A stretch of 64,000 nucleotides of DNA from Oceanibaculum nanhaiense (GTDB lineage Bacteria > Pseudomonadota > Alphaproteobacteria > Oceanibaculales > Oceanibaculaceae): contig NZ_MPOB01000003.1 of NCBI RefSeq assembly GCF_002148795.1, positions 186,001 through 250,000 of the forward strand. The letters are read 5' to 3'. Shown piece by piece: positions 48,688-51,809 of the stretch; positions within the stretch are counted from its first letter, which is position 1, and the number at the start of each line of letters is the position of its first letter. The position numbers and the translations under genes are program-made. The notes beneath the pieces are model-generated. The model was not told the origin of the DNA and made no database searches. It was given only the letters and a program-made list of their open reading frames with translations.

Positions 48688-50313
48688 TTACGCTGCGTCG
48701 AGCGCCGGGCGCGTCCCGGCCTCGAACGGCGCCTTCAGCGCCATCTCGCGCAGCAGCCAGACCAGCCGCTCGAACAGGCCGGTCAGCTGCAGCAGCCCCA
48801 TCTTCTCGTCGCGGTCGAGTTCCAATGCGGCATCGTTGAAGAAGTTGCGCCGCACCCCTTCCATCAGCTCGCCCCGGTCGCCGGTGATCCGCTCGATCAG
48901 CGCCATATCGTCGGGGTCGTCGCCGGCCATCGCCTCGACATAGGACAGCAGCAGCGCGTCCAGCCCCTCGGTCAGCGCCTCGCGGATCGCCGCCAGCGCC
49001 GTGCTGCCTTCCAGCAGTGGCGCGGCCGCCGCGAAGTCGTGCAGCACCGCTTCTATTGATCCCAGCCGGTCATGCCGGTCCACGATGCGATAGACGCGTT
49101 CATGGCTGTCCGCCGTCAGATCACCCTCCGCCAGGCCGACGATATAGGGCTTCGTCTGGCCATGCACCGAGACGAACGCCTTGTGCAGCGCCTCCAGCCG
49201 CGCCTTGCGGGCCGGCGTATCGGCCTGCCGCAACAGATCGGCATAGCGCGGCAAGCGCTCCAGCAGGCGCAGTTGCTCCTTCTCGGTCAGCAGGATGGCG
49301 GTCGCGGAATCGCGCGCCGTCTCCGGGCTGAGATAGGCAAGCTGGCTGTCACTCTCCTGCGGCGAAGCCGGGTAGCGCCTGGCAAGCAACCGTTCCACCC
49401 CGCCGATCAGCGGGAACAGGAACAGCGCCGTTACACTGTTGAAGACGAGGTAGCTGAGCGCCAGCTGCTGCGGCACATCGGAGGACGCGGCGCGCAGCAG
49501 CGCCATCACCAGCGGCACGCCGAACGCATGTTCGGCGACGAACAGCGCCAGCAGCAGGGCGCAGCCCGTCAGGTTGAAGCAAAGCTGGAACAGCGCCACC
49601 CGCCGCGCCGTCCCCTGCACACCGCCGGCCATCAGGTAGGTCACGATACCGCTGCCGAGATTGGTGCCATAGATGACCAGCATCGCCTGCTCGAAACTGA
49701 ACAGCCCGCTGCCCAGGAAGCCGATGCCGAGCAGCGCCACGGTGATGGAGGACTGGCAGGCCGCCGACAGTGCGGCGCCAATCAGGAAGGCCGCCGCCAG
49801 CGAGCCGTCGAGGCCGGCCATCAGCGCCATCACACCGTCGGACTGGGCGAACGGCACCGTGCCGGACTTCAGCAGCACCAGCCCGTAATAGAGCAGGCAC
49901 AGGCCGAAGATGGCGCTCAGCGCCGCCTTCCAGTGCTGCAGCCGCCCCTGCGTCATCAGGATGCCGGTCAATCCCAGCGCCAGCATGACGACGATGCGGA
50001 TATCCAGCGTAACCAGAAGCAGGATGAGCGCGCTGCCGATATTGCCGCCCATCAGGATCGGCAGGGCACGGCGCGGCTCGATCATCCGTGCCGTCAGCAG
50101 ACCGACCAGGATGAAGGTGACGATGGCGGTGCTCTGGATCATCGCCCCCAGCACCGCGCCCCAGAACAGGCCAAGCAGGGGGAAGGCGGCAACGCGCGAC
50201 AGGATGAGCTGCACGCTGCGTCCGACCATGTTGCGAAGGTTGGAGGTCAGCAACTCCTTGCCGACAAAGAACAGCCCCAGGCCAGCCAGAATGCTGGCAA
50301 GAGTGAACGCCAT
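48688..50313 (-). CDS. Na/Pi cotransporter family protein with PhoU-like tail
   Basis: A 541-residue membrane protein. The N-terminal about 310 residues hold the two Na/Pi-cotransporter repeats with GAVLGAMIQSTAIVTFILVGLL, GNIGSALILLLVTLD, GAALSAACQSSITVALLGIGFLG and GTNLGSGIVTYLMAGG; the QSS and QST motifs are typical. The C-terminal third (from about 340) is helical and PhoU-like, SATAILLTEKEQLRLLERL ... ALHDFAAAAPLLEGSTALAAIREALTEG. It probably imports phosphate with sodium. It is convergent with the GlcG gene and divergent from the ABC transporter operon. Confidence 0.88.
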   Translation of the reverse strand: MAFTLASILAGLGLFFVGKELLTSNLRNMVGRSVQLILSRVAAFPLLGLFWGAVLGAMIQSTAIVTFILVGLLTARMIEPRRALPILMGGNIGSALILLLVTLDIRIVVMLALGLTGILMTQGRLQHWKAALSAIFGLCLLYYGLVLLKSGTVPFAQSDGVMALMAGLDGSLAAAFLIGAALSAACQSSITVALLGIGFLGSGLFSFEQAMLVIYGTNLGSGIVTYLMAGGVQGTARRVALFQLCFNLTGCALLLALFVAEHAFGVPLVMALLRAASSDVPQQLALSYLVFNSVTALFLFPLIGGVERLLARRYPASPQESDSQLAYLSPETARDSATAILLTEKEQLRLLERLPRYADLLRQADTPARKARLEALHKAFVSVHGQTKPYIVGLAEGDLTADSHERVYRIVDRHDRLGSIEAVLHDFAAAAPLLEGSTALAAIREALTEGLDALLLSYVEAMAGDDPDDMALIERITGDRGELMEGVRRNFFNDAALELDRDEKMGLLQLTGLFERLVWLLREMALKAPFEAGTRPALDAA

Positions 50314-50433
50314 GGACAGCCCGCCCTTCCCACATGCCCCGTGCGGATCAGCGGCGGATAGTGTCGCAGCGTCCGGCGCCGCGCAATGAAGCGGACGATG
50401 AATTTTTCATGACAGGATAAGGGCTGGAGCACA

Positions 50434-50467
50434 CAAGAAAAGACCGGGAACCCGAAGATTCCCGGTC
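50434..50467 (-). terminator. Intrinsic terminator of a minus-strand transcript
   Basis: On the minus strand GACCGGGAA, an 8-nt loop TCTTCGGG, and TTCCCGGTC form a perfect 9-bp stem at 50467-50442, followed by TTTTCTT. No protein gene on that strand ends here, so it is the terminator of an otherwise unseen RNA. Confidence 0.85.
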
Positions 50468-50608
50468 GATCCCGCGGACCGCCCATTGGCGACAAAACCA
50501 AACGGCCCGCGAAGCCCGATGACGATTCGGAATTTCGAGTGCCGCCCTCACGATGCGAGGTACGCGACGGGTGGACACAGAAGAAGACTAGCCACCTGCC
50601 GGGCATAC
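50434..50608 (-). ncRNA. Candidate small RNA
   Basis: A possible 175-nt RNA on the minus strand. A promoter-like pair TTGCGA (50642-50637) and TATCAA (50620-50615), 16 bp apart, would start it near 50608. A second stem-loop has arms CGCGGGCCG (50511-50503) and CGGTCCGCG (50481-50473), 9 bp with one G:U pair that exists only in the minus-strand RNA (the other strand would have A:C), and an inner TTGG/CCAA stem. A short CCTC/GAGG hairpin lies at 50560-50546. The terminator described separately closes it. No known RNA family was recognised. Confidence 0.55.
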
Positions 50609-50807
50609 AGGAAATTGATAGTTTTCATTGTGTCGATCGCAAAAACCGATTGCCGGCTGCATCCATCGCGTCGAGAGGACTGGTAACCGGTGCTGTCAAC
50701 TTTTTGGCCTTCTGCGCAAGAATTGGTCAGGACAGGCGGCGGAAATGCTCCTACGGTAGGCGGATTAGGTTAGGTGAATGTACATAACGCCAGCGTTGGG
50801 CTGACCT

Positions 50808-50824
50808 GCCGTGCATGGCACGGC
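50808..50824. promoter_or_regulatory. Palindrome upstream of the ABC transporter operon
   Basis: GCCGTGC-ATG-GCACGGC has perfect 7-bp arms and lies 90 bp upstream of the substrate-binding protein start at 50914. It could be an operator or a leader hairpin. The remainder of 50610-50913 shows no gene. Confidence 0.4.
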
Positions 50825-50913
50825 GATTGCTGACAGATGAACGCCGCCTCCGTTCGCGTGGGCACCGTTATTCCTTCAAATCTGGCATTCAGGTAAATCT
50901 GGGAGATTAGGAC

Positions 50914-51741
50914 ATGAAGATTCTGGCTGGCGCGACCTGCGCCCTGCTGCTTGCCACTGCCGTCGCGCAGGCCGAGCCGCTGAAGACCGGCGTGGACGGC
51001 ACCTTCGCCCCGCACGCCATGCCGAAGCTGAGCGGCGGCGTGGAGGGTTTCAACATCGACCTCGCCAACGAGATCGGCAAGCGCACCAAGCGCGGCGTCA
51101 CCATCGAGGCGACGCAGTTTTCCGGCCTGCTGCCGGGCCTGCAGGCCGGCACCTACGATTTCATCGCCGCGCCGACCACGGTAACGCAGGAGCGCGCGGA
51201 GAATTTGCTGTTCACCGAAGGCTACCTGAACACCGACTTCCAGTTCGTGGTGAAGGCCGGCACGCCGGATATCAAGGATCTGGCCGAGCTGAAGGACAAG
51301 GTGATCGCGGTCAATCGCGGCTCCGCCTATGACAGCTGGGTGCGCGCGCAGGCCGACAAGATCGGCTGGAAGGTCGAGACCTTCGGCACCAACACCGATG
51401 CGCTCCAGGCCGTCATCTCCGGCCGCGCCTATGCCAATGTCGCCGGCAACACGGTGTCCGCCTGGGCAGTGAAGAAGAATCCGCAGATCAAGCTGTCCTA
51501 CCTGCACTCGACCGGCCTGGTCTGGGCCGCGCCGATCCGCAAGGGCAATGAGGAGATGCGCAAGCTGGTGGAAACCGCCATCGAGTGCATGAAGCTGGAT
51601 GGCACCATGGCGGCGATGCACGAGAAATGGTTCGGCACCAAGCCGGCAGCCGGTTCCGCGGCGGTCACCGTCTATCCGGGCTATGGCGTACCGGGGATGC
51701 CGGGCTACGACGCGACCGAGCACACGCCGGCCTGCAGCTGA
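50914..51741 (+). CDS. Polar amino acid ABC transporter substrate-binding protein
   Basis: A 275-residue periplasmic protein of the SBP_bac_3 family. Signal peptide residues 1-20 ([20 protein letters not shown]). The fold has [69 protein letters not shown], then [18 protein letters not shown] near the hinge. ATG 50914 follows GGGAG. The genes for an ATPase and two permeases follow within 70 bp, one complete uptake system. The ligand is unknown. Confidence 0.92.
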
Positions 51742-51809
51742 TAGGTTTGCGCGCATAGAACGGGCGGGGTTGACCATGACCCCGCCCTTCCGTTTCTGGA
51801 GTAACAATC

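Follow-up and report, generated by a model that had tools for sequence, protein, structure and literature searches.

The intergenic region between a Na/Pi cotransporter gene and an SBP_bac_3 gene of Oceanibaculum nanhaiense (positions 50314-50913 of the window, i.e. of the whole 64,000-nucleotide stretch that was analysed) carries an element that genome comparison well supports as the remnant of a katA transcription unit, namely its 3'UTR and terminator. The reading that we favour, with a probability of roughly 0.55, is that this collapsed unit specifies an OxyR-driven RNA of ~145 nt, kept as a peroxide-inducible small RNA with ahpC as a candidate target. A function as small RNA is plausible from the sequence comparisons, and the main rival is that the element is a relic. 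We found no paper on the locus itself in the literature, and a plasmid search gave no match. The features of the locus are collected in Table 1.

Table 1. Features of the katA remnant and its surroundings (positions in the window)
Feature	Position	Strand	Remarks
Na/Pi cotransporter gene	48688-50313	minus	PF02690
T-run TTTTCTT	50435..50441	minus	directly 3' of the terminator hairpin
Predicted short RNA, ~145 nt	50435..50578	minus	ends predicted from the -10 and the T-run
Intrinsic terminator stem-loop of katA	50442..50467	minus	11 pairs, UUCG loop (terminator scan); G001 and G002 have the same terminator past the stop codon of katA
Hairpin 1 (katA 3'UTR hairpin)	50471..50513	minus	compensatory changes over four species
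Conserved loop and adjoining inner-stem bases, UUGUCGCCAAUGG	50483..50495	minus	complementary to ahpC codons 3-7 over 13 bases
Variable stretch at the place of the missing katA coding region	50521..50584	minus	69% identity plus 20 gap columns versus G003
Candidate -10, TAGTCT	50585..50590	minus	TANNNT exactly 23 nt past the operator in 4/4 species
katA operator left behind, ATCG-N7-CGAT-N7-ATGA-N7-CAAT	50614..50650	minus	OxyR-type spacing, 11/16 consensus bases
Leader, with a TTGACA, of the TAXI-type solute-binding gene that was lost	50677..50720	minus	93% identity to the G003 sequence preceding that gene
SBP_bac_3 gene	50914-51741	plus	PF00497

Origin of the element and probable loss of katA

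We compared four Oceanibaculum genomes, those of the window (G000), of G001, of O. pacificum (G002) and of the sister species (G003), and a DNA search with the gap as query found the terminator region in all three relatives. In G001 and O. pacificum a catalase gene (PF00199, E below 1e-190; product of 487-488 aa) has its stop codon directly 5' of the element, and this gene is itself located downstream of a TAXI-type solute-binding gene (NMT1_3, PF16868). The sister species, whose Na/Pi gene is 92% identical to that of the window, has the TAXI-type gene and lacks the catalase at the locus; the window has neither gene at this place, the window species having also lost the neighbouring TAXI-type gene. 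Positions 50612-50654 match the katA promoter region, between the TAXI-type gene and katA. The element thus has its sequence in common with the 3'UTR of an mRNA (katA in G001 and O. pacificum), as is expected of a 3'UTR-derived sRNA. The preliminary description had remarked that no protein gene ends at the terminator, which is true in the window; katA is the gene that probably ended there ancestrally, and it does so today in two of the relatives.

A family search for PF00199 catalases came up empty in the window genome and the sister species and gave two each in G001 and O. pacificum, whereas KatG (PF00141) is encoded in the first pair and absent from the second. The katG gene is divergent to a gene whose closest solved relatives are OxyR proteins. 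We observed in this way a catalase swap within one genus (L141:864-3038 and L142 versus L143 and L144), with katG plus a divergent oxyR on one side and katA plus a large-subunit catalase on the other.

We infer that katA was lost in the lineage of the window and sister species rather than gained by the other two, because a gene-fitting promoter and terminator stand there without the gene; this polarity is drawn from the four species of the one genus. It might be argued instead that the OxyR-driven small RNA gene is ancestral and that it received katA by insertion in G001 and O. pacificum, as the promoter, hairpin and terminator are common to all four species regardless of katA. We consider this improbable, since the insertion would have had to hit the precise interval between a terminator and a suitable promoter of the peroxide type, and losing katA while acquiring katG is the simpler course.

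The gap also has features that belong to its neighbours. The Na/Pi cotransporter gene, downstream of the element, is the nearest minus-strand gene to the terminator, and its leader (50314-50433) is the most conserved noncoding part of the gap, with 115 of 120 positions identical between the window and the sister species (82% at fourfold sites). It contains, at 50398-50426 on the minus strand, Pho-box-like repeats (CAGCCCT-TATC-CTGTCAT-GAAA-AATTCAT) that the sister species also has, and that by their sequence suggest phosphate control of the cotransporter gene. In G001 two tandem Na/Pi cotransporter paralogues adjoin katA (L057:2123-5448), and in the window genome a second paralogue sits on a different contig. 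A strong terminator-like hairpin was seen on the plus strand at 51762-51787, just past the SBP_bac_3 gene and ahead of an ABC ATPase gene that seems to share its operon.

Operator, candidate promoter and RNA structure

The same operator is found 5' of katA in G001 and O. pacificum and 3' of the TAXI-type gene in the sister species. It has the spacing of the OxyR sites, ATAG-N7-CTAT-N7-ATAG-N7-CTAT, with 11 of the 16 bases matching, and the background for a match of at least 11/16 was 4.9e-5 per position in 0.8 Mb of the window genome. The OxyR-type sites at ahpC-oxyR and katG-oxyR each also reach 11/16; the sites of known Pseudomonas OxyR genes have 12-13 bases matching the canonical sequence (PMC5720770). 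At ahpC a second oxyR-like gene is divergently oriented (L216:356-1916 in the window genome, L217 in G001 and L218 in the sister species) and the site between the two, ATTG-N7-CGAT-N7-ATCG-N7-TCAT, is identical in these three species. The element had been credited with a plausible promoter. No sigma-70 consensus promoter was found there, and the promoter is likely an activator-type site (50650-50585, judged from the motifs) that extends upstream of the interval first described. Transcription of a ~145-nt RNA from the minus strand is likely.

An intrinsic terminator is present on the own strand of the predicted RNA and is conserved in all four species. In the preliminary description it was called perfect; the hairpin (50467-50442) followed by TTTTCTT is real, with one U-G pair, so that it is not strictly perfect. 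The 175-nt RNA of the minus strand folded better than all of 200 shuffles (z -4.5), but the plus strand of the same region also did so (z -3.7), so folding energy alone cannot choose the strand. For hairpin plus terminator (85 nt) z was -5.0, and the three relatives ranged from -3.6 to -5.0.

The two-hairpin element is common to all four Oceanibaculum genomes. Its consensus structure has 26 pairs, with 96% of the cells paired and 4 pairs changed on both sides; upon sliding the 3' partners by 1-3 columns pairing fell to 34-55% and double changes to zero, a control that is flattering because the structure was derived from the same four sequences. Among 500 shuffles the double changes were less striking (212/500), and the fraction of cells paired and the covariation score were strong (3/500 each). 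The polarised stem substitutions between the window and the sister species settle the strand: none of the four disrupts its pair on the minus strand, and three would do so on the plus strand. The upstream stem that had been pointed out before, with its minus-strand G:U pair that the plus strand would carry as A:C, is real, and the compensatory and wobble changes that covariation analysis over the four species brought out, as the preliminary description had proposed, fit the minus strand as well. The RNA structure thus appears from the alignment to be under selection, as is expected of a bacterial trans-acting sRNA gene. The loop UUUGUCGCCAA is almost invariant while the sequence of the stem varies.

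The search against Rfam covariance models that had been proposed alongside matched nothing: at gathering thresholds no match, no riboswitch and no OxyS were found in the window, and permissive thresholds gave a chance match at E 9 only. A covariance model of the element itself found precisely one copy per genome in the four Oceanibaculum genomes and, among 138 further genomes of the class, a single weak match (30.9 bits). The weak matches to the model (plus strand; L072; G067) were treated as terminator-like chance matches. Catalase 3'UTRs elsewhere in the class contain neither the loop motif nor the element.

Two other readings of the region bear on these results. That the element acts on the Na/Pi cotransporter gene, as an attenuator or riboswitch within its leader, would be in line with the common strand, with the terminator ~120 nt 5' of the start codon and with the strong conservation of the leader (115/120). 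We hold it to be very unlikely, as the element is located 3' of katA in two other species, no Rfam riboswitch matches, and the leader has its own Pho-box-like repeats past the terminator. A small protein gene on the minus strand is more unlikely still: a frame of 119 aa (50606-50247) spans the element, but it reads through the terminator, has no Pfam match, and the frames are not conserved in the sister species. A 76-aa frame was rejected as a protein gene for lack of a Pfam match and of conserved frames in the sister species.

Conservation after the probable loss of katA

Between the window and the sister species 60 of 326 fourfold sites of the Na/Pi gene differ (18%). In the hairpin-terminator only 7 of 89 positions differ (8%; 92% identity; p 0.015 versus the fourfold sites), whereas in the stretch that lacks katA 27 of 87 aligned positions differ, with 20 gap columns in addition. 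The latter stretch is still homologous in the two species (none of 500 shuffles scored as well), which suggests a single katA deletion before the two species split, with independent loss as the alternative. At the operator positions common to the katA-bearing species, 22 of 23 are identical between the two katA-less species versus 5 of 14 elsewhere (p 1.4e-4). The operator of the sister species cannot serve the TAXI-type gene, since it sits just 3' of the stop codon of that gene. The terminator there can still serve the TAXI-type gene, so that its conservation in that species needs no sRNA. By these counts, which are small and come from four genomes of which only two are katA-less, the comparison suggests that operator, hairpin and terminator have remained under selection, and their retention after the loss of katA supports a functional small RNA.

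The same observations have to be weighed against the possibility of an inert relic, in which the promoter and terminator of the deleted katA have merely not yet decayed, or the terminator insulates the Na/Pi gene, and any transcript is functionless. We think this less probable than not, and still a serious possibility: the origin as a remnant is clear, the terminator of the sister species is still 3' of a gene, and the adjacent Na/Pi leader is very conserved too (115/120), so the whole neighbourhood may evolve slowly. Yet the interval between operator and hairpin diverged by 31%, plus gaps, and the operator core and hairpin-terminator did not, and this decay restricted to the intervening sequence argues against a dead relic. 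Moreover, the loop is conserved, though a plain terminator needs none. The minus-strand small RNA of the preliminary description stands as far as a transcription unit, a selected RNA structure and the absence of a protein gene are concerned; its origin as a katA remnant had been missed.

For the retained small RNA that we favour we infer the following course, from the direction of change (loss versus gain) through OxyR binding and transcription to regulation and target. The katA coding region would have been deleted, most simply before the window and sister species split, and the deletion would have left only ~65 nt between the OxyR-type operator and -10 of katA on the upstream side and the 3'UTR hairpin with its terminator on the other. 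Once activated by peroxide, OxyR would then drive a minus-strand RNA that spans about 50578-50435. While the sequence between them decayed, selection probably kept operator core, hairpin and terminator, so that the RNA would most likely act as a small RNA inducible by peroxide. The conserved loop is probably the active part of the RNA, which would pair over codons 3-7 of ahpC, its best candidate target, and hinder the start of translation.

Candidate target and known systems

A genome search for the complement of the loop core placed it on ahpC codons 3-7 in the window genome and G001; by inspection the site of the sister species (L218) has it at codons 3-7 as well. This comparison covers the window genome, G001 and the sister species. 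In these genomes ahpC adjoins the second oxyR-like gene. The ahpC site was the only 12- or 13-base match to the loop on both strands of 0.8 Mb (two 400-kb stretches of the window genome), and none of the other loop-complement matches examined reaches the same CCATTGGCGACAAG. Ranking of targets by duplex energy alone was abandoned as unselective in a GC-rich genome, with ~50 other places ranking equally well as ahpC; contiguous complementarity was selective. We propose ahpC mRNA as target as a hypothesis only, because the match is weaker in the relatives (11 contiguous bases in the sister species and 10 in G001, versus 13 in the window genome), codons 3-7 are fixed by the protein sequence, duplex energy is unselective, opening costs ~4 to 7 kcal/mol for each partner, no compensatory change was found between loop and target, and ahpC was chosen after the fact. 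It is conceivable, if rather doubtful, that the katA 3'UTR already was an ahpC-pairing RNA in katA-bearing ancestors, where it would have coordinated two peroxide-removing enzymes, and that, when katG replaced katA, the removal of nothing but the coding region made it an independent sRNA gene under OxyR, with the repression of ahpC retained.

The origin of small-RNA genes is a long-standing question, and the relatives appear to show the state before (operator, katA, hairpin, terminator) and after (operator, hairpin, terminator) for one route, the deletion of the coding region from an mRNA whose 3'UTR holds a conserved structure. The locus makes it possible to test concretely whether an RNA from a 3'UTR can live on as its own gene, in a peroxide-response circuit and with a named candidate target. 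The katA unit of O. pacificum and G001 has the same operator, hairpin 1, loop and terminator in identical order and at the identical locus, but with the gene of a 487-488-aa catalase between the operator and the hairpin, which the window does not have.

Among described systems the RNA functionally resembles, by analogy, OxyS and sRNAs of the UdsC type, and it belongs to no described RNA family that was tested. OxyS is a short OxyR-controlled RNA with hairpins and an intrinsic terminator that acts by base pairing near a start codon. This sRNA of Escherichia coli is induced by oxidative stress (PMC5793797). The predicted likeness of the window RNA lies in the OxyR control, the hairpins with terminator and the pairing near a start codon; it differs in that it has no sequence or Rfam match to OxyS, does not adjoin oxyR, originates from a catalase 3'UTR and has another candidate target. 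UdsC of Rhodobacter sphaeroides is a 3'UTR-derived sRNA that affects peroxide resistance (PMC9779115), and further 3'UTR-derived sRNAs of Alphaproteobacteria have been described (PMC8625941). In these, too, a structured 3'UTR that ends in a terminator is the source of the RNA, but UdsC derives from another gene than katA, and in the window the coding region is gone, so that the RNA would be a primary transcript.
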